A stretch of DNA of 64,000 nucleotides. It comes from Runella sp. SP2. GTDB taxonomy: Bacteria; Bacteroidota; Bacteroidia; Cytophagales; Spirosomataceae. The position numbers were made by a program, and so were the translations under genes. The stretch lies in NCBI RefSeq assembly GCF_003711225.1, contig NZ_CP031030.1, positions 4,092,001 through 4,156,000 on the forward strand. Direction: 5' to 3'. Below, in pieces: positions 5,180 through 47,608 of this stretch (the stretch's first letter is position 1; each line of letters begins with the position of its first letter). The notes under the pieces are model-generated. The model saw nothing but the letters and a program-made list of their open reading frames with translations. It was not told the DNA's origin and did not search any database.

Positions 5180-5193
5180 ATAGCGCTACTCTA

Positions 5194-5218: not shown

Positions 5219-5322
5219 GCTTTTGTAGCTGTTTTGATATAGCTTTCTCACTTCGATAACACAAGCGGGCGCACTTGCGCTATCAAAAAATAACCAAATA
5301 AAATCCAGCAAACAAAAACAGA

Positions 5323-5697
5323 ATGAACGAAGTCGAAACATACATTCAGCAGTTTCCCGACAATGTGCAGGAAATATTGGGAAACATTAGAAAGCTAATA
5401 AAGGACAATGCCCCCGAAGCAGAGGAATCATTTGCTTACGGAATGCCTGCCTATAAGACACACAAAAAACCATTGGTTTATTTTGCGGCATTTAAAAACC
5501 ACATCGGATTTTACGCTACGCCATCGGGACATGACGAATTCCAGGCCGAACTTTCAAAGTATAAACAAGGAAAAGGCTCGGTGCAATTTCCGCTTGACCA
5601 ACCCATGCCCTACCAACTAATGGAAAGGATTGTAAAATTCAGAGTGAGCGAAAACAACGCCCGAAGCACTTCTAAAACATTTGGAAAATCGGAATGA
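5323..5697 (+). CDS. DUF1801 / YdhG-like protein
   Basis: 124 residues beginning VETYIQQFPDNVQEILGNIR and continuing EAEESFAYGMPAYK with PLVYFAAFKNHIGFY, the pattern of DUF1801, a YdhG/YjdG-like small beta-alpha protein family sometimes described as iron chaperones (from Bacillus YdhG). Chemistry is not established, so none is claimed. It stands alone downstream of a terminator with weakly defined upstream signals, and is followed 57 bases later by a membrane protein. Confidence 0.8.
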   Translation: MNEVETYIQQFPDNVQEILGNIRKLIKDNAPEAEESFAYGMPAYKTHKKPLVYFAAFKNHIGFYATPSGHDEFQAELSKYKQGKGSVQFPLDQPMPYQLMERIVKFRVSENNARSTSKTFGKSE

Positions 5698-5753
5698 CCT
5701 TACCCTTCAGATATTAAACAGGCTGGAAGCTTTTGAGACAAAAAAATGACCGC

Positions 5754-6374
5754 ATGAAAAAACACCTTGTTTTATTATGCCTTGTCCTCTCGGTGGGCTT
5801 CATTTGTACGGGTGCTTACGTTTACCCTGGCGGCTCCCTGTACGACAAAAACTCCGTCGGATTTGACTGGACTCAAAATTTCATTAGCAATTTGTTTCAA
5901 CCCAAAGCCCTCAATGGCGCCGACAACCCGTCGAGAGTTTGGGCGACCATTGGCATGGCTTTTAATTCCTTGGGCTTTGGTCTATTTTTTATAAATATGG
6001 CCAAAAAGATGTCCAACAAACACGCCTCATTGGTCTTAACAATTGTTGGCTTCAGCGATATTCTCTTCAACTTCCTCATTGCGACTCCGTTGCACGACAT
6101 CATGGTAACCCTCTCCAGCACATCTTCTTTGCTTGGGCTGTTTTACATAACGGTTTTTACCCTAAAAACGAAATTACATTTCTTCAAAATCAGCTGCATT
6201 CTTTGCATGGGCATCTTTTATTACTCCTTGTTTCTTTACGGCTTTGGCGATTGGGGTTTATTAGCAATTATGCAGAAAGTAACTCTAATCTGCTCCATGC
6301 TGCTCGTTTTGGGGTTTGAGTATTTCACTGACAAAGAAGACTTTAGACCAAATTCAGAGGTTAAGAAACTATAA
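5754..6374 (+). CDS. DUF998-like integral membrane protein
   Basis: 206 residues from ATG 5754. Six hydrophobic segments can be seen: residues about 4-22, 68-86 and four more to residue 195. The periplasmic-side stretch after helix 1, with VGFDWTQNFISNLF, resembles the conserved D-x-x-x-N-x-I-S-x-L region of DUF998 proteins. The role of the family is not known. An earlier in-frame ATG at 5733 would add seven polar residues before the first helix and is less likely. It is followed by a Crp/Fnr-type gene on the same strand. Confidence 0.65.
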   Translation: MKKHLVLLCLVLSVGFICTGAYVYPGGSLYDKNSVGFDWTQNFISNLFQPKALNGADNPSRVWATIGMAFNSLGFGLFFINMAKKMSNKHASLVLTIVGFSDILFNFLIATPLHDIMVTLSSTSSLLGLFYITVFTLKTKLHFFKISCILCMGIFYYSLFLYGFGDWGLLAIMQKVTLICSMLLVLGFEYFTDKEDFRPNSEVKKL

Positions 6375-33310: not shown

Positions 33311-33353
33311 TGACTTTGGTCATATCCTTCCGCTCGGTTGTGTTGCATTTTTG
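33311..33353 (+). promoter_or_regulatory. TGAC-N4-GTCA site and -7 element of the ccoI promoter
   Basis: TGACTTTGGTCA at 33311-33322, a perfect palindrome in its halves, preceded by CAAAAC. A -7 element CATTTTTG at 33346-33353 begins 29.5 bases from the palindrome centre. The start codon is at 33377. The same word TTGCATTTTTG and the same distance occur before hemN. Confidence 0.75.
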
Positions 33354-33376
33354 ACTAATTACAAAATGCCCATCCT

Positions 33377-35902
33377 ATGTCGCAATCTATTTCACCCGTC
33401 GTAGAAGTTCAATGTTACCACTGCGGCGCCGACTGCGAAGACCACGTCATCGTGCATGACGATAAGCCGTTTTGCTGCGAAGGTTGCAAAACCGTTTATG
33501 AACTTCTTCAAGAAAATCAACTCTGCAACTACTACGACCTGACGCAAAACCCAGGCGTATCGCCCGATAAAAATTACTACGCAGGCAAATACGCGTACTT
33601 AGACCTGTCCGAAGTTCACGATAAAATCATTGAATTTACCGACGGTCGCCAAACGCACGTCAACTGGTTTTTTCCTCAAATGCACTGTAGTTCGTGCGTG
33701 TATTTGTTGGAAAATCTCCACCGCTTGCACGAAGGCGTGATTTCGTCGTTGGTAAATTTCCCCGAAAAGAAAGCCCGTGTTGTTATCGACGAACAAAAAA
33801 TTAGCCTTAGCAAACTTGCCGAGTTACTTACTTACATCGGCTACGAACCTTATATTAGTTTGCAAGACATCGAAGCACAACAAGCTCCCAAAACCAACCG
33901 TACGCGTTTGTACAAAATCGGGATTGCGGGTTTTGCTTTTGGCAACGTCATGATGATGAGTTTCCCCGATTATTTTGGGTTGGGCGATACGCATCTGGAC
34001 CACCATTTACAAACGATGTTTAGTGTATTCAGTGTGGTATTGGCTTTGCCCGTATTTTTTTACAGCGCTTCCGACTTCTTCGTTTCGGCTTGGAAATCCA
34101 TCCGCGAACGCTTCCTCAACATTGATGCGCCTATCGCATTGGCTATTTTGGTCACTTTCGTGCGGAGTTTGTACGAAATTGGCACCCAAACGGGCGTCGG
34201 TTACCTCGACTCCATGACGGGCATTGTGTTTTTTATGTTGTTGGGTCGGTATTTTCAAGACAAAACGTACTCCGCTATTTCGTTCGACCGCGATTATAAG
34301 TCCTACTTTCCAGTAGCAGTGACGTTATTGAGCAGAGGACAAAGGGCGAAGGGCGAGGGGCAAGGGGCAGCAGACTTCCCTTCTGTCATACCGACGAAGG
34401 AGGTATCTAACACAAATAACCAATCCCCAGTCACCAATCACCAATTATTAGTAACCGACTTACAGCCTGGCGACCAGATTTTGATTCGTAATAAAGAATT
34501 GATTCCTGCTGATGTACGCCTTGTGAGCGAACGCGCGATGATTGATTACAGTTTTGTTTCGGGGGAATCTACGCCCATTGAAAAAACGCGTAATGAACTC
34601 ATTTATGCAGGTGGCCGCCAAATCGGGGGAGCGATTGAGGTCGAAGTGACCAAGCGGGTATCTCAAAGTTATCTGACGCAGCTTTGGAACAACGACTCGG
34701 CCACGCAACAACAGCAAAATGCCCAACAAACGATGGTGGGTAAAATCAATTATTACTTTTCGTGGGCGTTGTTGTTCTTAGGATTTGGGGCTTTGGCGTA
34801 CTGGGCCGTTTTGGGCGATTTACCAAGAGGCATCAACGCCATTACGACGATTTTGATTGTGGCCTGTCCTTGTGCGCTGTTACTTTCCGATACGTTTACC
34901 AACGGTAATATGTTGGGTATGTTTGGATCGAATAAACTGTACCTCAAAAACGCCCAAATCATTGAAAATCTGTCTAAAATCGATACGGTTGTTTTTGATA
35001 AAACAGGAACACTTACGTTGCCTGACGCAGCTCACGTTCAATTTATTGGCAAACCACTTACGCACATTCAACAACGAATCGTCCGTACCCTTTGCGAGCA
35101 ATCGTCGCACCCGTTGAGCCGATTGATTGCCAAGTCGTTACAGCACGTTCCGCACGAACAAATGGTAAGTGATTTTCAGGAAATAGAAGGAAAAGGCGTT
35201 GAGGGAAAGCTAGGCGAGTATGTTACGGTACGGCTAGGCTCTGCGACGTTTGTTTCTAATGATAGTCAAGAAGTTACTCCACTTCAAGACAGCAACAGCA
35301 GCCACGTTTATTTTTCATTTGATGGCAAAGTATTGGGTTATTTTGACATTCAAAGCCAGTACCGCGACAACCTCGTTGATACCCTCAAAAGTCTGAAACA
35401 AAAAAATTACAACACCTATTTATTGTCGGGCGACAAGCCTACCGACGTCGAAATGTTGAGTGAATTATTTGGTTCGCTCAAGCAGCTAAATTTCAATCAA
35501 AAACCCGACGATAAACTTCGATTTATTGAGAAGTTACAACAACAAGGCCACAAAGTCTTGATGGTAGGCGATGGCCTGAACGATGCGGGGGCACTCATCA
35601 AAAGCGACGTAGGCATTGCCGTTTCCGACAACATCAACAACTTTTCACCCGCTTGCGATGGGATTTTGGAAGGAAGTCAACTTTCAAAGCTACCTCAGTT
35701 TGTTCGCCTAGCCCAAGCAGGCCGCAACATTGTGATTCAGAGCTTTATCATTTCGGTGGTGTACAACATCATTGGGTTAAGTTTTGCCCTTACGGGAAAT
35801 CTTTCGCCCGTCATTGCCGCGATTTTGATGCCCGCCAGTTCGATTTCGATTGTCTTGTTTACCACGATTTCCAGCCGCATCGCCGCTTTGCGGAGGTTGT
35901 GA
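33377..35902 (+). CDS. ccoI: CcoI-type copper-transporting P-type ATPase with in-frame repeat insertion
   Basis: 841 residues. N-terminal metal domain with CYHCGADC and FCCEGC (Cys 13, 16, 33, 34, 37), an HMA-like domain with MHCSSCVYL, then the P1B-ATPase core: VACPCALLLSD (CPC metal site), VSGESTPIEK, VFDKTGTLT (phosphorylated Asp), SSHPLSR and VGDGLNDAG. CcoI delivers copper for the cbb3 oxidase. Residues about 320-358 in the actuator domain are a low-complexity stretch (RGQRAKGEGQGAADFPS and so on) encoded by a dispersed repeat; related transporters lack it. The ATG at 33377 is 24 bases past the -7 element. Followed by two genes on the opposite strand. Confidence 0.93.
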   Translation: MSQSISPVVEVQCYHCGADCEDHVIVHDDKPFCCEGCKTVYELLQENQLCNYYDLTQNPGVSPDKNYYAGKYAYLDLSEVHDKIIEFTDGRQTHVNWFFPQMHCSSCVYLLENLHRLHEGVISSLVNFPEKKARVVIDEQKISLSKLAELLTYIGYEPYISLQDIEAQQAPKTNRTRLYKIGIAGFAFGNVMMMSFPDYFGLGDTHLDHHLQTMFSVFSVVLALPVFFYSASDFFVSAWKSIRERFLNIDAPIALAILVTFVRSLYEIGTQTGVGYLDSMTGIVFFMLLGRYFQDKTYSAISFDRDYKSYFPVAVTLLSRGQRAKGEGQGAADFPSVIPTKEVSNTNNQSPVTNHQLLVTDLQPGDQILIRNKELIPADVRLVSERAMIDYSFVSGESTPIEKTRNELIYAGGRQIGGAIEVEVTKRVSQSYLTQLWNNDSATQQQQNAQQTMVGKINYYFSWALLFLGFGALAYWAVLGDLPRGINAITTILIVACPCALLLSDTFTNGNMLGMFGSNKLYLKNAQIIENLSKIDTVVFDKTGTLTLPDAAHVQFIGKPLTHIQQRIVRTLCEQSSHPLSRLIAKSLQHVPHEQMVSDFQEIEGKGVEGKLGEYVTVRLGSATFVSNDSQEVTPLQDSNSSHVYFSFDGKVLGYFDIQSQYRDNLVDTLKSLKQKNYNTYLLSGDKPTDVEMLSELFGSLKQLNFNQKPDDKLRFIEKLQQQGHKVLMVGDGLNDAGALIKSDVGIAVSDNINNFSPACDGILEGSQLSKLPQFVRLAQAGRNIVIQSFIISVVYNIIGLSFALTGNLSPVIAAILMPASSISIVLFTTISSRIAALRRL
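34330..34458 (+). repeat. dispersed repeat inserted in ccoI, copy 2
   Basis: G-rich lead (AAAGGGCGAAGGGCGAGGGG, 34340s) followed by CTTCTGTCATACCGACGAAG and GAGGTATC. Related to 20105-20240 in reverse. It keeps the ccoI frame and adds about 40 residues. Confidence 0.6.
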
Positions 35903-35952
35903 GGAAGGAGACGGGCTACCTCTTTAAAAAGAGCGGCGGCAAACTCATGGGA

Positions 35953-36633
35953 TTAGTTTAGTAGAACTTGTGCGGGGATTCCAAGTCTTTCGTGAAAAAG
36001 TTTCGCAAGTTTTAATGTCAATGGCTTTTTACGATTCAGCAATGCCGACACATAGCTTTTGCTCCCAATCCAGTCTGCTAAATCCTTGCTTTTTAACCCC
36101 CTTTCTTCCATTTTTAATTTTATAGCATCAATCGGATCAGGGATAGGTATCTGAAAATGAACGTCTTCATAGGCTTTCACCAACAACAAAGCAACCTCTA
36201 AATAGTCTCCTTCTGGCGTATTGAGAGCGGGCTTGCGTTCAAATTGTTCATCAATCCATTCCATCATAAGTTCATATTCTACGTCGTTTTTAATCGGTTT
36301 AAGTTCCATAATGTCAGGATTTTGTTTAGGTTGATATTTTACCGTTTTTACATCTATTTTATCGTATTCTGTGTGAGTACCGAACCACTTAATCTGAATC
36401 ACTTTATAGTCAAAAACCATTCTGACCACCAGCCGATAATGATTCCCCATGATATTAAAAACAACACGGTCATCTCCTACTAAACTGGCGTTTCCGTAAA
36501 CTGCCTTCAAATCCTGAAAGCTTTTGAACTCGCATAGGATCATTTCGTTGTACCATTCTTGCAAAGCATGGGCTGCTTTTGGATACAGAAGGCAGTACGA
36601 TAGTAGCGTTTTTCGTGCTATGATATTAAACAT
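35953..36633 (-). CDS. single-chain HigB toxin-HigA antitoxin fusion
   Basis: 226 residues from ATG 36633. Residues 1-98 are HigB of the RelE-type mRNA interferase family: FNIIARKTLLSYCLLYPKA, NRVVFNI-type VVFNIMGNHYRLVVRM and FGTHTEYDKIDV. Residues 99-108 are a linker and residues 109-226 are HigA: MELKPIKNDVEYELMMEWID, LNTPEGDYLEV, and the XRE helix-turn-helix SKDLADWIGSKSYVSALLNR. The usual locus has two genes with the toxin first; here there is no stop between them. The antitoxin ATG (36307-36309) is preserved, so free HigA could be made from an internal start. Also explained by a sequencing error, though codon phase is clean. Sits inside the cco cluster. Confidence 0.85.
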   Translation of the reverse strand: MFNIIARKTLLSYCLLYPKAAHALQEWYNEMILCEFKSFQDLKAVYGNASLVGDDRVVFNIMGNHYRLVVRMVFDYKVIQIKWFGTHTEYDKIDVKTVKYQPKQNPDIMELKPIKNDVEYELMMEWIDEQFERKPALNTPEGDYLEVALLLVKAYEDVHFQIPIPDPIDAIKLKMEERGLKSKDLADWIGSKSYVSALLNRKKPLTLKLAKLFHERLGIPAQVLLN

Positions 36634-36715
36634 ACCTGTTCGTCTTAAAAACAAAAATACAAAAAGTTCTCTAAAAGTAAACTTTCATTGTATAAATCTA
36701 TAATCTACCGAATTT

Positions 36716-37480
36716 TTACCCCCACACGCGGCTCGAAACAAGGTTAATCACCGCATTGACCACCAGCGCGATCAGAAACGCTACTACGACCGAAAATTCG
36801 TGAAGCAAAAACGCCTGCAAAAATAAGAAGGTCGTGAAGCCAACGAGGCCAATCATAATGCCTCGCAAGACCGTTATTGCCGCCGTACTGCCTTGTAAAT
36901 AATGGTTAAAAATGGCCAAAATCGACGTCAGAATAGGAAAAGGTGTCAGAACACCGCTCCAACTTGGCCCCAAAATCGCTGCCAGCCCTGTGATGGTCAA
37001 CACAAAAAGAGTCGCTACCAACATCCGAAACAATAAATCATACTTCGGAGGCTTCGCTCGGGAAGGAGCCGTTTGTCCCACCGAAGGGCGGGGAAAATAA
37101 TACAAAGCAATCGTAATCACGACCAAAGCCAAACCGTAAATCCCCCAAATTGTCAGTGGAATTGCATCCAACACAAGGGCAGTGAGGGCAAAAGCCACGT
37201 ATGAAATCAACAGCGTTGGTAACCACTTCAACCGTTTGGAAAACAACGCATAGCAGTAACAAAAACTGACCAGCGAGATAATTCCCATCAAAATACCTGG
37301 AATAGAGCGTATGCCGAAGTCTTTACCCTGTTCCAAAATAAAAAACACCAAGATAGGCCCCGCCACCCACGGCATACTCCCGACCACTCCCCCTACCCGA
37401 TTTCCCCACTTACGGCTAATCAGCGTAATCAGTCCAATGACCAACGGAATAATGGTCAGTTTAAAAAATAAGATATTCAT
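36716..37480 (-). CDS. polytopic membrane protein of unknown function
   Basis: 254 residues from ATG 37480 (a TTG just before it would add one Met-equivalent). Eight hydrophobic segments separated by short loops, with one polar cytoplasmic loop around residues 130-148 (RPSVGQTAPSRAKPPKYD). No motif I know. It is transcribed from a -7 element at 37502-37509 in the space shared with the cco promoter, and its end is 83 bases from the HigBA start. It separates ccoI from ccoS, genes that are usually adjacent. Confidence 0.6.
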   Translation of the reverse strand: MNILFFKLTIIPLVIGLITLISRKWGNRVGGVVGSMPWVAGPILVFFILEQGKDFGIRSIPGILMGIISLVSFCYCYALFSKRLKWLPTLLISYVAFALTALVLDAIPLTIWGIYGLALVVITIALYYFPRPSVGQTAPSRAKPPKYDLLFRMLVATLFVLTITGLAAILGPSWSGVLTPFPILTSILAIFNHYLQGSTAAITVLRGIMIGLVGFTTFLFLQAFLLHEFSVVVAFLIALVVNAVINLVSSRVWG

Positions 37481-37501
37481 CAATAAACGTAGCTAGTTGG
37501 G

Positions 37502-37509
37502 CAAAGGTA
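37502..37509 (-). promoter_or_regulatory. -7 element TACCTTTG on the minus strand
   Basis: Reverse-strand TACCTTTG, 22 bases before ATG 37480. Divergent from the cco promoter; the TGAC palindrome 37527-37538 lies 18 bases upstream of it. Confidence 0.5.
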
Positions 37510-37526
37510 CATAGATATACCAAAAC

Positions 37527-37592
37527 TGACCAAAGTCACTTTTGAGGACTGACTTCCCTCATCTTAATCCCGACCCACCAAACCTACTTTTG
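37527..37592 (+). promoter_or_regulatory. two TGAC-N4-TCA sites and -7 element of the ccoS-NO-QP promoter
   Basis: Upstream perfect palindrome TGACCAAAGTCA (37527-37538) and a degenerate site TGACTTCCCTCA (37550-37561) 23 bases further on. The -7 element TACTTTTG (37585-37592) begins exactly 29.5 bases after the centre of the degenerate site, the same distance as at ccoI and hemN. The first site is preceded by CAAAAC as at ccoI. Confidence 0.7.
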
Positions 37593-37652
37593 GGAGGTCG
37601 TCAGTCCTAACAAGCTGGTTCAATTTCAACATTCTCAAACATACACACGTCT

Positions 37653-37799
37653 ATGAGTGCTCTCATCATCCTGCTCTGCATCAGTCTGTTTGTCGCAGGC
37701 GGCTTCTTAATCGCCTTTGTATGGTCGGTACGCCAAGGGCAATACGACGACGATTACACTCCTTCGATTCGGATTTTATTCGACGACAACGAAAAATAG
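37653..37799 (+). CDS. ccoS: CcoS-type cbb3 oxidase assembly protein
   Basis: 48 residues, too short for a casual ORF scan but well supported. One transmembrane helix (LIILLCISLFVAGGFLIAF) followed by WSVRQGQYDDDYTPSIRILF; the WA/SVRxGQ(Y/F)DD motif is the CcoS hallmark. CcoS is needed for cofactor insertion (heme b and copper) into CcoN. It is 36 bases ahead of the ccoNO gene and carried by the same transcript; it starts 60 bases after the -7 element. Confidence 0.93.
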   Translation: MSALIILLCISLFVAGGFLIAFVWSVRQGQYDDDYTPSIRILFDDNEK

Positions 37800-37835
37800 T
37801 TCATCTTTTTTAATCATAAACTCCTCAAATTCAAC

Positions 37836-39980
37836 ATGGAACCAATTTCCAAAACAACCTCAACCGTTGACATGGAAGAGTTTCAGTATGATAACACCAT
37901 CGTACGGAATTTCGCCATTGCTTCTATCGTGTTTGGGATCGTCGGAATGCTGGTGGGCGTACTTATCGCGTTTCAGTTAGCATTTCCTGCCCTCAACCTC
38001 GATATTCCCTACACTACGTTTGGTAGGTTACGTCCCCTTCACACCAACGCCGTCATTTTTGCTTTTGTCGGTAACGGCTTTTTTATGGGGCTTTATTATT
38101 CGGCACCACGGGTACTCCGCACGCCGATGTACAGTAAGTTGTTGTCCAACATCAACTTCTGGGGCTGGCAACTTATCATCGTAGCCGCCGCCATTACACT
38201 TCCATTAGGACTTACCACAGGAAAAGAATACGCCGAACTCGAATGGCCGATTGACATTGCCATTGCGGTGGTATGGGTAGCAGCCCTTCTTAACCTCGTC
38301 ATGACCATGATTAACCGCCGCGTGCAGCACATTTATGCTGCGGTTTGGTTTTACTTGGCTTCGTTTGTCACAGTAGCGATGTTGCACGTCGTCAACAGCG
38401 TTGAACTTCCAATTTCTCTTACTAAAAGTTATTCTTGGTACGCGGGTGTGCAAGATGCCTTGGTACAATGGTGGTATGGTCACAATGCCGTAGCGTTCTT
38501 CTTGACGACGCCTTACTTGGGTTTGATGTACTACTTCTTACCCAAAGCAGCCAACCGCCCTATCTATTCGTACCGTTTGTCGATTGTTCACTTTTGGTCA
38601 TTGATTTTCTTATACATCTGGGCAGGCCCTCACCACTTGCTTTATACCTCTTTGCCCGACTGGGCACAATCGTTGGGTACGGTGTTCTCTGTAATGTTGA
38701 TTGCTCCTTCGTGGGGAGGGATGATTAACGGTCTGTTTACCCTTCGTGGGGCTTGGGACAAAGTTCGTGAGGATGTGGTTTTGAAATTCATGGTAGTAGG
38801 GGTAACTGCCTACGGGATGGCGACCTTTGAAGGCCCTATGCTTTCGTTGAAAAACGTAAACGCCATTGCTCACTATACCGACTGGATTGTAGCGCACGTT
38901 CACGTAGGAGCACTTGGATGGAACGGTTTTATGACGTTTGCCATCATGTACTGGTTGTTCCCACGATTGTACGGACGTCCGTTGTTTTCTCAAAAATTGG
39001 CCAATTTTCACTTCTGGATTGGCACCTTGGGTATCATTTTCTACGCCGTGCCGATGTACTGGGCAGGTTGGACTCAATCGTCGATGTGGAAAGAATTTAC
39101 TGAAGAAGGTTTCTTAAAATACCCTAACTTCCTCGAAACCGTTACGCAGCTTGTGCCTTTCTATATTTTACGTGGAATTGGTGGTACATTGTTTTTGGTA
39201 GGTTTCTTGGTAGGTACGTACAACTTAGCCATGACGGCCCTTAGCGGTAAGCTCATTGCCAACGAAACAGCACGTGCGGCTTCGCTCAAATCTATCTGGA
39301 ATCCTCCTGCCAACGAATTTTGGCACAGCCGTATTTTTGAACGCAAGCCTGTGTTCTTTACCGTTATCTCGTTGGTAGCCGTCATCATCGGGGGTGTCAT
39401 TGAACTTGTGCCAACCTTCATGGTAGAGTCCAACGTACCAACCATCGAAAGCGTGAAACCTTACACCGCACTTGAACTCCAAGGCCGCGACATCTACGTT
39501 CGTGAAGGCTGCTATACGTGTCACTCTCAAATGATTCGTCCGTTCCGTTCCGAAACCGAACGCTATGGCGAATACTCAAAAGCAGGTGAGTTTGTTTATG
39601 ATCACCCATTCCAGTGGGGTTCAAAACGTACAGGACCTGATTTGCACCGTCTTGGTGCCAAATACCCCGATTCATGGCACTACAACCACATGGAAGACCC
39701 AACGAGTATGTCGCCTGGTTCTATCATGCCCAAATACCCTTGGTTGCTTGAGGATGCGCTTGATTTGAGCACCACTCCTGCCAAAATCAGCGCCATGCGT
39801 ACCCTCGGCGTTCCTTACGAAGACGGGTTTGAAGACCAAGCCATTGCCGACGCTCAAAAACAAGCCGATGGCATCGTGGCTAGTTTGAAAAAAGACGGTA
39901 TCAAAGCCAAAGCTGACAAAGAAATCATTGCGCTCATTGCCTACTTGCAACGCTTAGGTACTGACATCAAAAAACAATAA
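37836..39980 (+). CDS. ccoN: cbb3-type cytochrome c oxidase, fused CcoN-CcoO subunits
   Basis: 714 residues. Residues up to about 480 are CcoN, the heme-copper catalytic subunit with about twelve membrane segments: YTTFGRLRPLHTNAVIFAF, VQWWYGHNAVAFFLT with the Cu-site His-type, GPHHLLYTS and the heme-ligand IVAHVHVGALGWNG. From about 500 is CcoO: one anchor helix (FFTVISLVAVIIGGVIELVP) and a single heme c site CYTCHSQMIRPF (Cys559, Cys562, His563). Fusion of N and O is the usual Bacteroidota form. It takes electrons from CcoP and reduces oxygen with high affinity; proton pumping is expected. Confidence 0.97.
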   Translation: MEPISKTTSTVDMEEFQYDNTIVRNFAIASIVFGIVGMLVGVLIAFQLAFPALNLDIPYTTFGRLRPLHTNAVIFAFVGNGFFMGLYYSAPRVLRTPMYSKLLSNINFWGWQLIIVAAAITLPLGLTTGKEYAELEWPIDIAIAVVWVAALLNLVMTMINRRVQHIYAAVWFYLASFVTVAMLHVVNSVELPISLTKSYSWYAGVQDALVQWWYGHNAVAFFLTTPYLGLMYYFLPKAANRPIYSYRLSIVHFWSLIFLYIWAGPHHLLYTSLPDWAQSLGTVFSVMLIAPSWGGMINGLFTLRGAWDKVREDVVLKFMVVGVTAYGMATFEGPMLSLKNVNAIAHYTDWIVAHVHVGALGWNGFMTFAIMYWLFPRLYGRPLFSQKLANFHFWIGTLGIIFYAVPMYWAGWTQSSMWKEFTEEGFLKYPNFLETVTQLVPFYILRGIGGTLFLVGFLVGTYNLAMTALSGKLIANETARAASLKSIWNPPANEFWHSRIFERKPVFFTVISLVAVIIGGVIELVPTFMVESNVPTIESVKPYTALELQGRDIYVREGCYTCHSQMIRPFRSETERYGEYSKAGEFVYDHPFQWGSKRTGPDLHRLGAKYPDSWHYNHMEDPTSMSPGSIMPKYPWLLEDALDLSTTPAKISAMRTLGVPYEDGFEDQAIADAQKQADGIVASLKKDGIKAKADKEIIALIAYLQRLGTDIKKQ

Positions 39981-39985
39981 AAATC

Positions 39986-41047
39986 ATGAAATTCAGAAAC
40001 TATCTCCAGACGATTGACGGAGTGGCGATATATCCGCTCATCGGACTACTGATTTTTGCGGCCGTTTTTGTAGGATTGGTATGGTACCTTGTAAAACTTG
40101 ACAAGAAAACCGTCCAAAAAATAAGCCAACTGCCCCTCGAAGACGGCACTGTTCGCCGTGGACTTGCAACGCTTACGTTACTTTTTGTTTCATCAATGGT
40201 GTTTGCCCAAGCCGCCGAAGCTCCCAAAGCAGGCGACAAAGAGTTGGTTAACTACCTCATAGTTATGTTGCTGGTTGTGGTCATTTTGGCTGTGCTCGTG
40301 CTCTTGGTGCAAGTGATGATGCTTCTCCGTAAAATCTCTGCTCCTCAAGGCAATACCGAAGTAAAAGAAGATTTACGCGGCGAATCGGCGCCGATTTTCA
40401 GTGAACGTTGGTGGCAACGTTGGACGGGTTTTGGCGTAAAACTCGCCGACGAGCAACGCATCCTTATCAAAGGCCACGACTACGACGGCATCCACGAACT
40501 CGACAACCGTATGCCTCCTTGGTTGGCATTCTTGTTCCAAGGTACGATTGTATTTGCCGTGATTTACCTTATCATTTACCACATGTCGGGTTGGGGCGAT
40601 TTACCGATGGCCGAGTTGGAAAAAGAAAGCCAAGTGGTAGAAGCGAAGAAAACCGCGTTCCTTGAAAAAGCAGCGGCCAAAATCAACGAAAATACTGTTA
40701 CGTTGGCCACTGACGCGAAGACAATTGAGGAAGGGAAAGCCATTTTTACGGCCAACTGTGCCGCTTGTCATGCTGCTGATGGTGGCGGTTCGGTAGGGCC
40801 AAACCTCACTGACGAGTACTGGCTCCACGGCGGTGGTATCAAGAATGTCTTCAAAACCATCAAATACGGTGTACCCGAAAAAGGGATGATTGCGTGGGAA
40901 AAGCAATTGAACCCACTCAAAATGCAACAGGTTGCTAGTTACATCATCTCCATCAAAGGCACAAAGCCTGCGACTCCGAAAGCTCCTCAAGGAGAAATTT
41001 ATACCGAAGCTCCCGCTGCGGCGGATAGTACCGTAGCCGCAAAATAA
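39986..41047 (+). CDS. ccoP: fused CcoQ-CcoP subunit of the cbb3 oxidase
   Basis: 353 residues. Residues 1-45 look like CcoQ (one helix, PLIGLLIFAAVFVGLVWYLV, with a basic tail). The CcoP part follows: GHDYDGIHELDNRMPPWL (residues about 163-180, the CcoP signature), a helix, and one heme c site CAACHAADGGG (Cys258, Cys261, His262), against two in proteobacterial CcoP. Between them residues 57-75 (RRGLATLTLLFVSSMVFAQ) look like a signal peptide ending FAQ-AAEA, so cleavage could separate Q from P. The start is five bases after the ccoNO stop. Confidence 0.93.
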   Translation: MKFRNYLQTIDGVAIYPLIGLLIFAAVFVGLVWYLVKLDKKTVQKISQLPLEDGTVRRGLATLTLLFVSSMVFAQAAEAPKAGDKELVNYLIVMLLVVVILAVLVLLVQVMMLLRKISAPQGNTEVKEDLRGESAPIFSERWWQRWTGFGVKLADEQRILIKGHDYDGIHELDNRMPPWLAFLFQGTIVFAVIYLIIYHMSGWGDLPMAELEKESQVVEAKKTAFLEKAAAKINENTVTLATDAKTIEEGKAIFTANCAACHAADGGGSVGPNLTDEYWLHGGGIKNVFKTIKYGVPEKGMIAWEKQLNPLKMQQVASYIISIKGTKPATPKAPQGEIYTEAPAAADSTVAAK

Positions 41048-41050
41048 GTC

Positions 41051-41083
41051 ACCTCAACCCCGTCCTTCGGACGGGGTTGAGGT
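41051..41083 (+). other. 15-base-pair hairpin between ccoQP and ccoG
   Basis: Stem ACCTCAACCCCGTCC (41051-41065) with its complement at 41069-41083, loop TTC; four bases past the ccoQP stop and 16 bases before ccoG. No T run follows, so it is more likely an RNA stability or processing element than a terminator. Confidence 0.65.
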
Positions 41084-41099
41084 TAAACGAATTCTCATC

Positions 41100-42512
41100 A
41101 TGCAACCCCTCGATACACACCCCGACTTCGACGAATCGTTCCGCGATAGTTTTGCGGCTGTCGATGATACCACTGGGAAAAGAAACTGGTTTTACCCTCA
41201 AAAACCAACTGGAAAATGGCATAACCGCCGCGTTTGGTTTACCATTTTTCAGCTCACTGTAATGTTTGCCTTGCCGTTTATCAAAGTAAATGGCCAACCC
41301 CTCTTCTTGTTCAACATCCTAGAGCGTAAGTTTATCGTTTTCGGAATTTTCATTGGCCCACAAGATTATTGGCTTTTTGGGCTAATGATGATTTCTTTCT
41401 TTGTATTTATTGTACTTTTTACCACCGTTTTTGGGCGAGTTTGGTGCGGATGGGCTTGTCCGCAAACGGTATTTATGGAAATGGTTTTCCGTAAAATCGA
41501 GTACGTCATCGAAGGCGACTGGAAAGCCCAACGTGCCCTTGCCAAAGCGCCTTGGAACAGCGAAAAAATCACCAAAAGAACCCTCAAAGCGGTTATTTTC
41601 TTGGCATTATCGTTTGCAATTGCCAATCTGCTGTTAAGCTACTTTGTGGGTATTGACCGCCTCGAACGCATCATCTTAGAGCCAATATCAGAGCACTTGA
41701 CTTTATTTTTGGGTATCTGCGCTTTTACCCTAGTTTTCTTTTGGAATTTTGCCTGGCTACGCGACCAAGCTTGTACCGTTGTGTGTCCTTACGGACGCTT
41801 GCAAGGGGTATTGCTTGATAAAAACTCAGTCGTGATTGCCTATGATTATAAACGTGGCGAACCGCGTGAAAAACTTCGTAAAGGTGCCGAACGTACCGCT
41901 GGCGATTGTATTAACTGTTTTCAGTGCGTGAATGTATGCCCAACAGGTATCGACATCCGCAACGGTACCCAAATGGAGTGCGTCAATTGCACGGCCTGTA
42001 TCGACGCCTGCGACAACATCATGGAAAAAGTGAACCTGCCCAAAGGCTTGATTCGCTACGACTCGGAAAACAATATTTCTGCGGGTAAAAGTAAACTCAT
42101 TACCACCCGTACCATTGCTTACGCAGTCGTATTGACGGCGCTTTGGGTGGGTCTAGGCTATGCTATTTTTACCCGAAACGACACCGAAACAACGCTTTTG
42201 CGCGCTCCAGGTTCTCGATTCATCGAAAACCCCGACGGTACCATTAGCAATCTTTATACCTTCAAATTGTTTAATAAAACCAATCATCCCATCCAGCCTG
42301 AGATGAAGTTGTTGTTCCCCAAAGGCACCTTAAAATTTGCGGGAATCCCTAACCTCAACCTCGAAGCCGCAGGAATGGTCGAAGGTTCGGTATTTATTAC
42401 CATTCCAAAATCCGAACTCTCCAAACGCCGCACCGACGTTTCCTTGGGAATCTACGCCGACGGCAAGCAGTTGGAAGAATTTAAAACAACGTTCATTGCA
42501 CCAGAAGAATAA
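41100..42512 (+). CDS. ccoG: CcoG-type ferredoxin-like oxidase assembly protein
   Basis: 470 residues. Five or so membrane helices in the first two thirds and a polyferredoxin segment: CVVCPYGRLQGVL, then DCINCFQCVNVCPTGIDIR and ECVNCTACIDACD, the paired 4Fe-4S binding motifs of the FixG/RdxA family. The C-terminal Ig-like domain (IFTRNDTETTLLRAPGS onward) is periplasmic. CcoG supports cbb3 maturation as a copper reductase; the cysteines in the membrane part fit this. Confidence 0.95.
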   Translation: MQPLDTHPDFDESFRDSFAAVDDTTGKRNWFYPQKPTGKWHNRRVWFTIFQLTVMFALPFIKVNGQPLFLFNILERKFIVFGIFIGPQDYWLFGLMMISFFVFIVLFTTVFGRVWCGWACPQTVFMEMVFRKIEYVIEGDWKAQRALAKAPWNSEKITKRTLKAVIFLALSFAIANLLLSYFVGIDRLERIILEPISEHLTLFLGICAFTLVFFWNFAWLRDQACTVVCPYGRLQGVLLDKNSVVIAYDYKRGEPREKLRKGAERTAGDCINCFQCVNVCPTGIDIRNGTQMECVNCTACIDACDNIMEKVNLPKGLIRYDSENNISAGKSKLITTRTIAYAVVLTALWVGLGYAIFTRNDTETTLLRAPGSRFIENPDGTISNLYTFKLFNKTNHPIQPEMKLLFPKGTLKFAGIPNLNLEAAGMVEGSVFITIPKSELSKRRTDVSLGIYADGKQLEEFKTTFIAPEE

Positions 42513-42523
42513 ACATTACAATT

Positions 42524-42958
42524 ATGAAACTATCTTGGGGAACGGGCATTTGGGCATTTTATGGCTTATTTGTCTTAATGATATTAGCGATGGTCGGAAT
42601 GAGCATCGTCCAAAAAATTGACCTCGTCACCGACAATTATTACGAGGAAGAAGTAAAGTTTCAGGGCAAAATTGATAAAATCAACCGCGCCAAACAACTA
42701 ACTACTCCCCTATCTTGGGAAGTAACCGACGCAGGCATTCGGATTCATTATCCTACTGAATTAAAAGGCATTAGCGGAAAAATTAACCTTTATTGTCCTG
42801 CCGACAATCGGAAAGATATGTCAATGCCAATACAGGTTGGAACCGACGGTACGCAGTTTATTCCGAGTCAGAAGATTCATACGGGTCGCTACCAACTCCA
42901 AATCGACTGGCAAGCCAACGGCATCGGATACTGGAACGAAGGAACACTCAATATTTAA
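42524..42958 (+). CDS. ccoH: FixH/CcoH-like cbb3 assembly protein
   Basis: 144 residues, one N-terminal membrane helix (WAFYGLFVLMILAMVGMSI) and a periplasmic beta domain with DNYYEEEVKFQGKI, the FixH signature region. FixH/CcoH stabilises the assembling oxidase. It starts 12 bases after ccoG. A REP-like palindrome follows its stop at 42967. Confidence 0.88.
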   Translation: MKLSWGTGIWAFYGLFVLMILAMVGMSIVQKIDLVTDNYYEEEVKFQGKIDKINRAKQLTTPLSWEVTDAGIRIHYPTELKGISGKINLYCPADNRKDMSMPIQVGTDGTQFIPSQKIHTGRYQLQIDWQANGIGYWNEGTLNI

Positions 42959-42966
42959 GGGTGGCA

Positions 42967-42984
42967 AGGGTTGCTCACAACCCT
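42967..42984. repeat. REP-like palindrome, single copy C
   Basis: AGGGTTGCTCACAACCCT; eight bases after the ccoH stop and 28 bases before the next start. Inside the cco operon, so it may act on the mRNA. Confidence 0.8.
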
Positions 42985-43011
42985 CAACACATAATCTCGA
43001 CATTCAAAACC

Positions 43012-43710
43012 ATGTTTTACCTAGCTTTTTCCCTCGGACTAATGAGCAGCCTACACTGCGTGGGGATGTGTGGGCCGATTGCACTGGCACTCCCCGTACA
43101 CCAACGCTCAAAATGGGGAAAGTTGGGCGGAATTCTGTTGTATAACCTTGGTCGAGCTACTACTTACGCCCTCCTCGGTTTTTTGCTCGGTTTTGTTGGT
43201 AATGCGCTCAATTTGGCAGGACTCCAGCGTAGTTTGTCGATTGGTACAGGAATAATTATGCTGGCCGCCGTGGCGTACTCTTCGCATTGGCTAGACCAAC
43301 TCGGAACACCTTCTTTTCTTCAAAAAAGTGTTCAATGGTTAAAAAAACAATTAGGTACGCTCCTCCATCAACGCAGTTTTAGCTCCCTTTTTATGCTCGG
43401 TACACTCAATGGACTTCTGCCCTGCGGGCTTGTCTATATGGCACTCATTAGCTCCATAGCCACGGGAGGCCCTACCGACGGGGCGCTTTTTATGGCTACC
43501 TTTGGACTTGGTACTCTTCCCGCTATGAGTGCCGTGGCGTTTGTAAAAAATCTTTTTTCTAATTTTCTCCGCAGCCGTGCCCGCCAATGGATGCCTGCTT
43601 TTGTGGCCGTTGTCGCCATCGTGCTCATTCTCCGTGGCTTAGAAGTAACAGGCTGGCCGATTTTAGGTTTAGAAAACCGTGAGATTCCTGTTTGTCATGG
43701 CGGGAGGTAG
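43012..43710 (+). CDS. TauE/SafE-like membrane protein of the cco cluster
   Basis: 232 residues from ATG 43012; a longer frame upstream reads through ccoH in the wrong frame. The first helix contains LGLMSSLHCVGMCGPIALAL with paired Cys, a motif of the sulfite exporter TauE/SafE-related (DsbD-type) proteins that in many Bacteroidota sit with ccoG and ccoH. Five or six membrane segments. It is thought to handle copper or thiols for oxidase assembly. Ends near a hairpin at 43762. Confidence 0.85.
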   Translation: MFYLAFSLGLMSSLHCVGMCGPIALALPVHQRSKWGKLGGILLYNLGRATTYALLGFLLGFVGNALNLAGLQRSLSIGTGIIMLAAVAYSSHWLDQLGTPSFLQKSVQWLKKQLGTLLHQRSFSSLFMLGTLNGLLPCGLVYMALISSIATGGPTDGALFMATFGLGTLPAMSAVAFVKNLFSNFLRSRARQWMPAFVAVVAIVLILRGLEVTGWPILGLENREIPVCHGGR

Positions 43711-43761
43711 GTTTGTTTTCATATCTTTTGCTACAAACGTTATGCCTCTCCGAGGCTAATC

Positions 43762-43788
43762 TTTAATCGTTTCACTGAAACGATTAAA
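43762..43788. terminator. hairpin after the cco operon
   Basis: TTTAATCGTTTC, loop ACT, GAAACGATTAAA: a 12-base perfect stem 52 bases past the TauE/SafE-like stop, before the hemN promoter. Confidence 0.6.
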
Positions 43789-43841
43789 AGCGTTTTCGCC
43801 TATTTTAATAAAAACAGCCATTGACATTTTTCCAATCAGCC

Positions 43842-43884
43842 TGACCAATGTCATATTTTACTTTTCCAATAGCTTGCATTTTTG
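43842..43884 (+). promoter_or_regulatory. TGAC-N4-GTCA site and -7 element of the hemN promoter
   Basis: TGACCAATGTCA at 43842-43853 and -7 element CATTTTTG at 43877-43884; the -7 element begins 29.5 bases after the palindrome centre, as at ccoI. Both are inside TTGCATTTTTG words. Start codon 43903. Confidence 0.75.
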
Positions 43885-43902: not shown

Positions 43903-45264
43903 ATGAACACGCAACTACTTCAGAAATACAACGTGCCTGGGCCTCGCTACACCAGTTACCCGACAGTGCCTTATTGGGACAAAACCCCACTTACCGAAAC
44001 CCGTTGGAAAGACTTGGTAAAAGATATATTTGAAATCAGCAATACGTCCGAAGGAATTAGCCTCTATATTCACTTGCCGTACTGCGAAAGTTTATGCACC
44101 TACTGTGGCTGCAATACTCGCATTACGGTCAATCACAAAGTAGAACAACCGTACATTGCAGCCGTCTTGAAAGAATGGCAGCTTTATCTTGATTTTCTAC
44201 CCAATCGCCCCCAAATCCGTGAGTTACACTTAGGAGGAGGAACGCCCACATTTTTTAGCCCTGAAAATCTCCGAACGCTGATTTCGGGTTTGTTTGAAAA
44301 AGCCGACATCCATCCTAACCACGAATTTGGGTTTGAAGCGCACCCAGCTAGTACTACCGACGCGCACCTCCAAACGTTGTTTGAACTAGGTTTTCGTCGG
44401 ATTAGCATTGGGGTTCAAGATTTCAATCCCGTTATTCTTGACCTCATTAATCGCCCTCAAACGTACGAACAAGTCAAACATGTAACCGAAAAGGCGCGTG
44501 AAATTGGTTATACGTCGGTTAACTATGATTTGGTTTATGGTTTACCACGGCAGCAAGTAGAAGGAATGACCCAAACCATCGGAGAAGTGATTCAGCTTCG
44601 TCCCGACCGCATTGCGCTTTACAGCTACGCCCACGTACCTTGGGTAAAACCAGGTCAACGCAAATTTACCGAAGCCGACTTACCAGATGCCGCCAAAAAA
44701 TTAGCGATTTATGAAGCCTGTCGTAATGCCTTAGAGTCAGTGGGGTATCACGACATCGGGATGGATCACTTTTCACTCAAAACAGATACACTTTATCAGG
44801 CCCTTGAAGATAAAAAACTCCACCGCAATTTTATGGGCTATACCACCACCCAGACGCGTTTGCTGGTGGGCTTGGGCGTGTCGGCCATCGGGGATTGTTG
44901 GTGGGGCTACGGTCAAAACGAAAAAACGGTCGAGAAATACTACGAACGCCTCAACGCAAACGAGTTACCGATTTTCAGAGGCCATGTTCTGACGCGGGAG
45001 GATTTGATTCTACGACGTCATATTTTGCAGTTGATGTGTCATTTTGAAACCACTTGGTTCGATTCCAAAGACCAATGCCAAGCGCTTTACGAAGCCCTTG
45101 CCCGACTGGAAGAACCCGAAAAAGATGGCCTTGTTAGCATCGAGCCCTATCACCTCAAAGTAACGCCCGAAGGCCGCTCTTTCATCCGTAATATCAGTAT
45201 GGCATTTGACGCGCGTTTGTGGGGCGATATACCACAAACAGCCATTTTTAGCCAAACATTTTAA
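43903..45264 (+). CDS. hemN: oxygen-independent coproporphyrinogen III oxidase
   Basis: 453 residues from ATG 43903. Radical SAM cluster motif YCESLCTYCGC (CxxxCxxC plus an extra Cys), followed by GGGTPTFF and the HemN-type N-terminal trip-wire PGPRYTSYPTVPYW. It makes protoporphyrinogen IX without oxygen and is thus needed when oxygen is low. Its own promoter has the TGAC site. It is 39 bases ahead of the histidine kinase gene on the same strand. Confidence 0.95.
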   Translation: MNTQLLQKYNVPGPRYTSYPTVPYWDKTPLTETRWKDLVKDIFEISNTSEGISLYIHLPYCESLCTYCGCNTRITVNHKVEQPYIAAVLKEWQLYLDFLPNRPQIRELHLGGGTPTFFSPENLRTLISGLFEKADIHPNHEFGFEAHPASTTDAHLQTLFELGFRRISIGVQDFNPVILDLINRPQTYEQVKHVTEKAREIGYTSVNYDLVYGLPRQQVEGMTQTIGEVIQLRPDRIALYSYAHVPWVKPGQRKFTEADLPDAAKKLAIYEACRNALESVGYHDIGMDHFSLKTDTLYQALEDKKLHRNFMGYTTTQTRLLVGLGVSAIGDCWWGYGQNEKTVEKYYERLNANELPIFRGHVLTREDLILRRHILQLMCHFETTWFDSKDQCQALYEALARLEEPEKDGLVSIEPYHLKVTPEGRSFIRNISMAFDARLWGDIPQTAIFSQTF

Positions 45265-45303: not shown

Positions 45304-46545
45304 ATGTTAGAAATATTCATTCAGCAAACCCAAGCGATGAGAAGACACGTCGAAATGTTAGATGCACTCTTTAAAAGTGCAACGGAGGGAATTATTGTCG
45401 TGGATTCGTGGGGAGCTATACAGTTGGTCAACCCCAAAGCCGAAGAATTATTTGGCTACGATGAAGACGAGTTGATTGGTAAGAAAATAGAAATTCTTAT
45501 TCCTCAACGATATGCCCGCAATCACGTAGATCACCGCATGAATTACTCCCAGCATCCCAAGGCAAGGAACATGGGGAGAAACCTAGACCTCAATGCCAAG
45601 CGTAAAGATAATTCGGAGTTTCCTGTCGAAATCAGTTTAAGTCCGTTTGCCACCAGCGATGGCGAATACATTGTAAGTTTTATTATCGACATTTCGCTGC
45701 GCAAAAAACAAGAGGAGGCATTGCTAGAAGCACACCGCCAAATCCAAAGCCTTAACGCCGACTTGGAAGAGCGCGTGCAGCAACGCACCCGTGAACTGGC
45801 ACATGCGCTAGAGGAGATTGAGCAGTCGAAACAGGAAGTGATGCGGGCGCTGGAGAAAGAGCGCCAACTCAACGACATGAAGACGAAATTTGTGACGATT
45901 GCCTCGCACGAATTCCGTACGCCATTGGCGACTATTCTCTCTTCTGCGTCTTTGATTGGACGTTATACGCACGCTGAAGAAGACGAAAAACGTCAAAAAC
46001 ACGTCCAACGTATCAAATCCACGGTAACAAACTTGACCGAGATTTTAAACGACTTTTTGTCGCTCGGCAAACTCGAAGAAGGACAAATCCGCAACGTGCC
46101 GATTGTGTTTCCTGTTACTGATTTTTGCAAAGAATTGGTGGACGAACTCAAATCAGTTTGCAAAGAAAACCAGCAGATTATATACACCCACGAAGGTGAT
46201 TCTGAAGTGTGTGTCGATCGTCATTTGCTCAAAAATGTACTCATCAATTTGCTTTCAAACGCCTCCAAATATTCGGACGCGGGCAAGCAAATTTTCTTAC
46301 GTTCATCTAAAAAAGAAAAAACCGTTCGCTTTGAAGTACAAGACCAAGGCATTGGGATTCCCGAACAAGACCAAGCGTATGTGTTTGACCGCTTTTTCCG
46401 CGCACACAACTCTGGGACGATACAAGGAACTGGCCTTGGGCTAAACATTGTAAAAAAATACATTCAGTTGATGCAAGGCGAAATCCAGCTTACGAGTCAA
46501 CTGAATCAAGGAACGACGGTGTCTCTCGACCTTCCGAATTGTTAG
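45304..46545 (+). CDS. soluble PAS-type histidine kinase
   Basis: 413 residues with no membrane segment. PAS domain residues about 20-130 (TEGIIVVDSWGAIQLVNPKA, GYDEDELIGK, then the FixL-like RYARNHVDHRMNY), a coiled coil 135-190, phosphoacceptor His202 in ASHEFRTPL and the ATP-binding region with N-box NLLSNASKYS, DQGIGIP and GTGLGL. His74 aligns with the heme-ligating His200 of Bradyrhizobium FixL, but the Arg220 equivalent is Leu, so heme binding is a guess. Stops four bases before the REC-CRP gene and follows hemN, so it belongs to one operon. Confidence 0.9.
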   Translation: MLEIFIQQTQAMRRHVEMLDALFKSATEGIIVVDSWGAIQLVNPKAEELFGYDEDELIGKKIEILIPQRYARNHVDHRMNYSQHPKARNMGRNLDLNAKRKDNSEFPVEISLSPFATSDGEYIVSFIIDISLRKKQEEALLEAHRQIQSLNADLEERVQQRTRELAHALEEIEQSKQEVMRALEKERQLNDMKTKFVTIASHEFRTPLATILSSASLIGRYTHAEEDEKRQKHVQRIKSTVTNLTEILNDFLSLGKLEEGQIRNVPIVFPVTDFCKELVDELKSVCKENQQIIYTHEGDSEVCVDRHLLKNVLINLLSNASKYSDAGKQIFLRSSKKEKTVRFEVQDQGIGIPEQDQAYVFDRFFRAHNSGTIQGTGLGLNIVKKYIQLMQGEIQLTSQLNQGTTVSLDLPNC

Positions 46546-46549
46546 CCAC

Positions 46550-47608
46550 ATGAAGACCATTCTACTGATAGAAGACAATCCCGACATGCGGGAGAATACG
46601 ACCGAAATTTTGGAGTTAGCACACTACAATGTACTAACGGCAGAAAACGGCAAGAAAGGCATTAAAATCGCTCAAGAACAGCAGCCTGACCTGATTATTT
46701 GCGACATCATGATGCCCGAACTCGACGGCTACGGGGTGTTGCATTTGCTCAGTAAAGAAGCTGAAACGGCCAGTATTCCCTTTATTTTCTTAACGGCCAA
46801 AGCGGAAAAAGCCGATTACCGCAAAGGAATGACCCTTGGGGCAGACGATTATTTGACCAAACCTTACGACGACGTAGAGCTGCTCAGTGCGGTAGAAACG
46901 CGCTTGCGTAAAAACGATTTGCTCAAAACAGAGTATTCACGTACAGAAGAAGGTCTGACGCAGTTTTTGAACGAAGTAAAATCGTTTGAATCGCTCAAAA
47001 AACTGTCAGAAAACAAAAAAACGAAGCTCTATAAAAAGCGCGAAACGGTGTATTCGGAGGGAAGTTATCCCAATGCCGTTTATTTCTTAAAAAGTGGAAA
47101 AATCAAAAACTCAAAGACCAATGAGTTTGGGAAAGAATACATTGTAGAGCTTCACAAACCTGGCGATTTTTTTGGGTATTTAGATTTATTGGAAAACACG
47201 CCCTACCAAGAATCGGCCGTGTCGCTGCAAGACAGTGAAGTGGTTATCATTCCCAAAGATGAATTTAATAGCCTTCTCTACAACAACCGCGACGTAGCCA
47301 CGAAGTTCATCAAAATGCTTTCCAATGAAGTGCGCGAGCGGGAAGAGCGATTGCTGAAACTTGCCTACAACTCCGTACGAAAACGCGTAGCCGAAGCGCT
47401 GATAATGCTAGCCAATCGCTACCAAGAAGATAAAACAAAGCCTTTTGCCATTGCCATCACCCGCGAAGATTTAGCGAGTATCGTGGGCACCGCGACCGAA
47501 ACGGTTATTCGCACCCTTTCTGATTTCAAAGACGAACATCTTCTCGAAATGAAAGGAAGCCTGATTACGGTACTCGATTATGAGAAACTATCTCGAATGA
47601 AGAATTAA
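46550..47608 (+). CDS. response regulator fused to a CRP-type DNA-binding module
   Basis: 352 residues. Receiver domain 1-120 with phosphoacceptor Asp52 (LIICDIMMPELDG), Thr and Lys in IFLTAK and LTKPYDD. Residues about 150-270 form a cyclic-nucleotide-binding type beta-roll (RETVYSEGSYPNAVYFLKSG, HKPGDFFGYLDLL) and residues 290-345 a Crp helix-turn-helix (ITREDLASIVGTATETVIRT, LSDFK). This is a REC plus CRP fusion, the roles of FixJ and FixK joined in one chain. The likely phosphodonor is the kinase encoded four bases upstream; likely sites are the TGAC-N4-GTCA palindromes of the cco and hemN promoters. Confidence 0.92.
   Translation: MKTILLIEDNPDMRENTTEILELAHYNVLTAENGKKGIKIAQEQQPDLIICDIMMPELDGYGVLHLLSKEAETASIPFIFLTAKAEKADYRKGMTLGADDYLTKPYDDVELLSAVETRLRKNDLLKTEYSRTEEGLTQFLNEVKSFESLKKLSENKKTKLYKKRETVYSEGSYPNAVYFLKSGKIKNSKTNEFGKEYIVELHKPGDFFGYLDLLENTPYQESAVSLQDSEVVIIPKDEFNSLLYNNRDVATKFIKMLSNEVREREERLLKLAYNSVRKRVAEALIMLANRYQEDKTKPFAIAITREDLASIVGTATETVIRTLSDFKDEHLLEMKGSLITVLDYEKLSRMKN

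Follow-up and report, generated by a model that had tools for sequence, protein, structure and literature searches.

Three promoters in a 64,000-nucleotide stretch of the Runella sp. SP2 genome (contig NZ_CP031030.1, positions 4,092,001 to 4,156,000; hereafter the window), those of ccoI, ccoS-NO and hemN, carry the palindrome TGAC-N4-GTCA or a near copy of it at one fixed distance from a -7 element. Judged from the sequences compared, this arrangement is a conserved class II code of the FNR/FixK type that reaches across much of the Bacteroidota. It is probably best explained by class II sites for a dimer of the CRP/FNR type, the most likely reader in this genome being a receiver-CRP fusion that is encoded, together with a histidine kinase, 3' of hemN on the same strand (45304–47608). 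The initial annotation had described the boxes at the three promoters, a further perfect copy upstream of the near copy at ccoS-NO, and a -7 element that begins exactly 29.5 bases past each box centre. Re-reading of the coordinates and re-measurement of the distances confirmed all of this, with a gap between box and element of 23 nt in each case (Table 1). The view that these promoters lead genes of low-oxygen respiration and haem synthesis is likewise borne out by the products, namely a CcoI-type ATPase, CcoN-CcoO with CcoP-, CcoG- and FixH-family proteins, and HemN.

The decisive evidence for a shared code is its conservation. A ccoN match was present in 105 of 121 genomes of the family, and 80 of these 105 were sampled, each as a stretch of at most 20 kb surrounding ccoN. 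Together with the window, the 80 loci yielded 166 regions of 450 nt upstream of ccoI, ccoN and hemN, in which the box was sought as TGACn5TCA or TGAn5GTCA (one free base) and its partner as nAnnTTTG. The gap between the two was 23 nt in 62 pairs, 20 nt in one and 26 nt in another, and no pair had any other gap from 10 to 39 nt. A wider set of 214 regions, comprising also those upstream of kinase genes and gaps of 0 to 45 nt, added two pairs with a gap of 8 nt and 36 with a gap of 45 nt; an upstream tandem copy accounts for these 36. When these 214 regions were resampled with a first-order Markov model (200 rounds), the gap-23 count averaged 0.03 and never exceeded 1, which supports the earlier argument that identical spacing is hard to explain by chance. 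Perfect boxes anywhere in the region were found in 64 of the 166 cases, as against a resampled mean of 0.74 (maximum 3, 100 rounds). Gap-23 pairs were present upstream of 10 of 51 ccoI, 26 of 81 ccoN and 26 of 34 hemN genes, and in 19 of 56 genus-by-gene groups, 41 of 81 loci and 14 of 26 genera. Some of the ccoN regions fall within a ccoI-ccoS-ccoN run, where a promoter is not required.

Among representatives of the 19 genus-by-gene groups, the box and its distance from the -7 element are retained, whereas its four middle bases, the spacer and, for the most part, the flanking bases have changed; immediately before the box 17 of the 19 have C, and immediately after it 17 have T. Of the 62 gap-23 pairs, 33 begin the -7 element with C, 19 with T and 10 with G; this frequent absence of the consensus T would fit dependence on an activator. 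Some promoters have another box, with no more than one mismatch, upstream of the first; the distance between the two centres is 22 bp at six promoters and 23 bp at 13, spread over six genus-by-gene groups, and seven further second boxes lie 48–50 bp upstream. The ccoS-NO promoter of the window belongs to the 23-bp tandem type.

The assignment to class II depends on where transcription starts. In Flavobacterium psychrophilum, the sigma-A element TAnnTTTG occupies positions -12 to -5 (PMC9723704). If that numbering applies, the box centre lies at -41.5 because the element starts at -12 and the centre is 29.5 bases earlier, and the class II geometry proposed before agrees with this prediction. 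The two-fold palindrome TGA(C)-N4-(G)TCA is kept at orthologous promoters, and its position relative to the predicted starts is fixed near -41.5, as 62 of the 64 pairs with gaps of 10–39 nt are at 23 nt.

In the SP2 genome (7.6 Mb) the bare pattern TGACN4GTCA occurs at 95 places, compared with 66 for the reversed pattern that served as control. The excess is clearer for the box followed by nAnnTTTG: seven sites versus one in the control at gaps of 21–25 nt, five of the seven at exactly 23, and 18 versus eight at gaps of 8–38 nt, five of the 18 at gap 23. The ccoS-NO box, being TGACn4CTCA, escapes the pattern and is missing from the seven spaced sites. A search of 13 genomes of the genus returned 47 spaced sites versus four in the control. 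The initial annotation had stated that a lack of such enrichment, in this genome and its relatives, would refute the code; the spaced pair proved to be enriched in the SP2 genome, the genus, the family and, as described below, the phylum, and the code was not refuted.

The seven spaced sites of SP2 were also considered as a single regulon, and this was rejected: L006 lies inside a gene, the boxes at L002, L005 and L007 are flanked by T and A, and those at L005 and L007 adjoin other CRP-like genes. The latter two resemble TTGACAAATGTCAA (L005 1501–1544, C1:5045857–5045900, gap 24; L007 1501–1543, C1:7240357–7240399, gap 23), and the CRP-like proteins encoded beside them (213 and 188 amino acids, respectively) have an ETLSR helix. 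They perhaps represent a second, different box with readers of its own.

Across 247 Bacteroidota genomes, the spaced box was counted against the same reversed-pattern control. Genomes encoding the fusion or a stand-alone CRP with a closely similar recognition helix had 188 spaced sites versus 10 in the control (74 genomes). The 38 with a fusion match (E ≤1e-60) account for 129 versus six, with at least one box in 35 of them, and the 36 with the stand-alone CRP only (E cut-off 1e-25, a set that may include non-orthologues) for 59 versus four, which divide into 33 versus four in 20 class/order members and 26 versus zero in 16 other genomes. The 173 genomes with neither reader had 27 versus 25 sites, that is, no enrichment. 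For 115 listed boxes (of 129 counted) from 32 fusion genomes, 0.6 would be expected within 10 kb of a fusion gene and 1.2 within 20 kb; the observed numbers are 21 and 29, respectively, and come from 15 of the 32 genomes. A chance likeness, or plain promoter conservation without any regulator, is highly improbable. Apart from the modest excess of the bare palindrome in SP2, which would agree with it, it is in large part contradicted by the phylum tally, in which enrichment tracks the candidate readers over the 247 genomes, and by the gap count; the persistence of box and gap amid diverging bases speaks against it as well.

The fusion itself is widespread in the family, with a match in 112 of 121 genomes (E ≤1e-50; a few may be partial or paralogous). 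All 18 fusions compared share the receiver residues E8, D9, D52, T82 and K104 and the recognition-helix residues E317 and R321. Most fusions have the helix GTATE-T/S-x-IR; variants such as GTSLETAIR exist, and 13 listed fusions fell outside the search expression. Positions 180, 181 and 185 of CRP have been tied to specificity (PMC1274295), and Thr, Glu and Arg, which by eye occupy these positions in the fusion, would suit an FNR-like rather than a CRP-like box. Pfam models identify three CRPs in SP2, and the helix GTATE-x-x-IR is found in the fusion only.

This bears on the possibility that the class II sites are real and that another CRP/FNR-type protein of SP2 reads them, be it the one at L008 (222 amino acids), the one at L010 (226 amino acids) or a shorter CRP-like protein. 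We consider this rather unlikely. TGACn4GTCA copies do adjoin other CRP genes (L010 543–554, L005 and L007), and in genomes devoid of the fusion the reader must be a different CRP. However, the helices at L008 (CSTRQTVTQLF) and L010 (ATSREVISRLL) are unlike the box-associated GTATE-x-x-IR, boxes concentrate near fusion genes, and the copies at L005 and L007 are flanked by T and A, unlike the cco and hemN boxes with their C and T. The L010 protein, encoded near a putative persulfide dioxygenase gene, was considered as reader and set aside on account of its helix, being kept merely as a candidate within this alternative. The box at L010, TGACATTGGTCA, stands directly 5' of that gene, a lactamase-fold gene that is persulfide dioxygenase-like by eye and adjoins a sulfite-exporter-like gene in addition to the CRP gene. 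In another genome (L221), a lactamase-rhodanese gene is preceded by a spaced box at gap 23.

That the box is exclusive to the fusion was ruled out, as fusion-free genomes have it at ccoN, ccoI and hemN. A stand-alone CRP with a nearly identical helix can explain these boxes, as far as sequence comparison goes. A protein of this kind, about 226 amino acids long, is encoded near cco genes or boxes in the fusion-free genomes G265, G340, G207, G191 and G152, and in G180 it is encoded elsewhere, some 20 kb from the hemN box. Its helix reads GTATE-S/L-x-IR, or GTAKETVIR in some family members, and all 17 sequences of a set chosen for helix and CxxC have the cysteines C4, C7, C53 and C106, candidate ligands of an Fe-S cluster. 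Comparison with PDB chains gave the CRP/FNR-family regulator 2gau as best match (6.1e-28) and FNR-type regulators at 1e-17; the match to the NCBIfam Fnr model (1.1e-24, 87 bits) stays below the 228-bit cut-off. An N-terminal cysteine cluster like that of FNR was looked for in the fusions as well: none of the listed receiver-CRP fusions has a CxxC within its first 75 residues, and inspection of the window fusion revealed no cysteine in its CRP half.

For the fusion, the signal would be supplied by the neighbouring kinase. Compared with PDB chains, the PAS domain of the window kinase has FixL (1.9e-13) as its best characterised relative, after a multi-sensor histidine kinase (2.7e-16). His74 aligns with the haem histidine of FixL and is invariant in 20 of 20 sequences. 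Of 66 kinases that are encoded next to a fusion and align here, 65 have a histidine at this position, and 10 more kinases are unaligned there; in the exception, L127, a histidine lies two places off and the alignment is possibly shifted. The kinase beside the fusion in L218 (same class; 5171–6331, minus strand) matches FixL at 1.1e-29 and keeps both this histidine and the FixL arginine, a residue that acts on the distal haem side. Haem sensing by the window kinase is plausible from these alignments.

The genes led by the box elsewhere were inspected in 60 stretches, taken from box-rich and from fusion-free genomes. Of 61 boxes, 51 have the start of an open reading frame (ORF) within 420 nt and three were flagged as lying inside one. 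Named mostly by eye, the ORFs include hemN (five), ccoI (four), ccoN (four), Usp-like genes (three) and pta (two). Domain scans support glutamyl-tRNA reductase (hemA), copper nitrite reductase (L234), molybdopterin oxidoreductase, pyruvate/2-oxoacid ferredoxin oxidoreductase, phosphate acetyltransferase, cytochrome c, a lactamase-rhodanese protein and PEP carboxykinase. In two members of the genus, the box is followed by a gene for a di-haem cytochrome c peroxidase. In Aquimarina (L129) the box is upstream of ccoN at gap 23, with kinase, fusion and hemN close by; in Arcticibacter (L127) and Sphingobacterium (L132) these genes also lie together, but the strict pattern detected no box. An uncharacterised protein of about 500–606 amino acids is encoded 3' of a spaced box in L093, L098, L241 and L274, in at least three families, and a Pfam scan gave no match for L093 (300 amino acids scanned) or L241.

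Some of these genes raise the question of the signal, which might be nitric oxide or another respiratory cue and not oxygen, with the regulator as proposed. The copper nitrite reductase gene and, by eye, genes for a NorC-like cytochrome (L250) and a RIC/YtfE-like protein (L128) would agree with such a cue, and so would the match of the box core to wyTTGACnnnnGTCAArw, the motif predicted for the HcpR regulators of nitrosative stress (HcpR1 branch; PMC1274295). We nevertheless regard a signal other than oxygen as unlikely, given that the window genes serve micro-oxic respiration and haem synthesis, that the kinase PAS domain is related to FixL, very closely so in L218, and that the alternative reader resembles FNR. 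The core TGACnnnnGTCA is common to both; the HcpR motif TTGACnnnnGTCAA has TT and AA flanks, from which the boxes described here, mostly with C before and T after, depart, and the targets predicted for HcpR are hcp, frdX and norB (PMC1274295). Among the papers searched, TGACnnnnGTCA and four variants occur as strings in two, PMC1274295 and PMC4974557.

Several observations weigh against the class II code and against the fusion as its reader. The excess of the bare palindrome in SP2 is merely modest, and the strict pattern detects no gap-23 pair upstream of ccoI, ccoN or hemN in 12 of the 26 genera of the family. The presence of the regulators tracks phylogeny, and related genomes are therefore not independent trials in the tally of boxes and readers. 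The box also occurs in fusion-free genomes and is not specific to the fusion, and several box-led genes have no evident low-oxygen role. In the PAS alignment, the FixL arginine is replaced by leucine in the window kinase. Finally, a box directly before the kinase gene was considered as a general rule and is not supported: where the kinase-fusion pair lies away from hemN, just two of 19 loci (L038 and L047) have a perfect box there, neither at gap 23.

Taking these points into account, we still favour the receiver-CRP fusion as reader in SP2 and propose the following model. At low oxygen the PAS kinase would phosphorylate the fusion, which would then bind TGAC-N4-GTCA at -41.5 as a CRP/FNR-type dimer, recruit sigma-A RNA polymerase to the -7 element and activate ccoI, ccoS-NO and hemN. 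At ccoS-NO a second dimer may occupy the box 23 bp, or roughly two helical turns, further upstream. By read-through from hemN, which would imply co-transcription, the fusion may also activate its own genes. Elsewhere in the phylum, the reader of this box, in place of the fusion or alongside it, would be an FNR-like CRP that stands alone and has four conserved cysteines. We lean slightly towards a more general picture, in which one low-oxygen code of many Bacteroidota, TGAC-N4-GTCA at -41.5 plus TAnnTTTG, may be served by two sensing chemistries, a haem-PAS kinase with receiver-CRP fusion (in effect a FixL-FixJ-FixK cascade of only two proteins) or an FNR-like cysteine CRP, whose readers are almost alike in their recognition helix and, from one family to another, occur in place of each other or together.

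The proposed system resembles FixL-FixJ-FixK of rhizobia and other Alphaproteobacteria in its FixL-related PAS kinase, receiver protein and CRP-type activator and in having cco and hemN as targets (PMC4999443). By contrast, receiver and CRP are joined here in one protein, as if FixJ and FixK had in effect been merged, the promoter is of the TAnnTTTG type, the window kinase lacks the FixL arginine, and the FixK/FnrN consensus TTGANCNNGATCAANG (PMC4999443) differs from TGACn4GTCA. With FNR and ANR the system shares a CRP-fold activator at (predicted) -41.5, a regulon of cco and hemN and, in the stand-alone CRP, four conserved cysteines, whereas the CRP half of the window fusion has none. The E. 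coli FNR box, TTGAT-N4-ATCAA, differs in its fifth base, and the cysteine spacing of E. coli FNR is unlike C4, C7, C53 and C106. Under oxygen limitation F. psychrophilum strongly induces its cbb3 oxidase and increases haem biosynthesis enzymes (PMC9723704); the words CRP, FNR, TGAC and palindrom are absent from the main text of that paper. CRP/FNR homologues of Flavobacteriales and Saprospiraceae have been assigned to MalR-like carbon sensing (PMC8510549). A search of the literature that was not exhaustive and largely excluded subscription journals found no Bacteroidota regulator described as controlling cbb3 oxidase and oxygen-independent haem synthesis, nor did we recognise a publication on this box or fusion in the phylum.

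Table 1. Promoter elements and genes of the cco-hemN region, in window coordinates.
Feature	Position	Strand	Basis or remark
ccoI activator box TGACTTTGGTCA	33311–33322	+	sequence match, kept in relatives
ccoI -7 element CATTTTTG	33346–33353	+	predicted transcription start ~33358, from the position in PMC9723704
ccoI-type cation-pumping P-type ATPase	33377–35902	+	domain/profile matches
ccoS distal perfect box TGACCAAAGTCA	37527–37538	.	23 bp centre to centre 5' of the proximal ccoS box
ccoS-NO proximal near-copy box TGACTTCCCTCA	37550–37561	+	sequence match
ccoS-NO -7 element TACTTTTG	37585–37592	+	predicted start ~37597
ccoS-like small ORF, 48 amino acids	37653–37799	+	name given by eye
fused ccoN-ccoO, cbb3 oxidase subunits I/II	37836–39980	+	domain/profile matches
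ccoP-like gene	39986–41047	+	FixP_N and cytochrome c domains
ccoG	41100–42512	+	domain/profile matches
ccoH (FixH family)	42524–42958	+	domain match
hemN activator box TGACCAATGTCA	43842–43853	+	sequence match, kept in relatives
hemN -7 element CATTTTTG	43877–43884	+	predicted start ~43889
hemN, oxygen-independent coproporphyrinogen III oxidase	43903–45264	+	TIGR00538 above cut-off
PAS histidine kinase, FixL-related PAS, conserved His74	45304–46545	+	domain and PDB-chain comparison
receiver-CRP fusion, proposed box reader	46550–47608	+	receiver, cNMP-binding and Crp-type HTH domains

Some further features of the region deserve mention. Read on the minus strand (37502–37538), the distal perfect box of ccoS lies 17 nt before TACCTTTG of a divergent membrane-protein-like gene (36716–37483), a spacing that would suit repression better than class II activation. 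A minus-strand ORF (35953–36654), situated between ccoI and the ccoS promoter, looks by eye like a toxin-antitoxin pair of the HigB-HigA type in one frame; ccoI is closer to ccoN in some members of the genus (L013–L015). Within ccoI, an in-frame low-complexity stretch at 34335–34455 (RGQRAKGEGQGAADFPSVIPTKEVSNTNNQSPVTNHQ) has the appearance of an inserted repeat.

Beyond what the initial annotation had described, our analysis adds a probable regulator, a conserved tandem spacing of 22–23 bp and a reach past this genome, and it names two candidate sensor systems. The fixed distance between box and promoter can be used to look for the low-oxygen regulon in a phylum whose promoters are unusual, and the arrangement would represent a case of class II activation at a promoter of the TAnnTTTG type.

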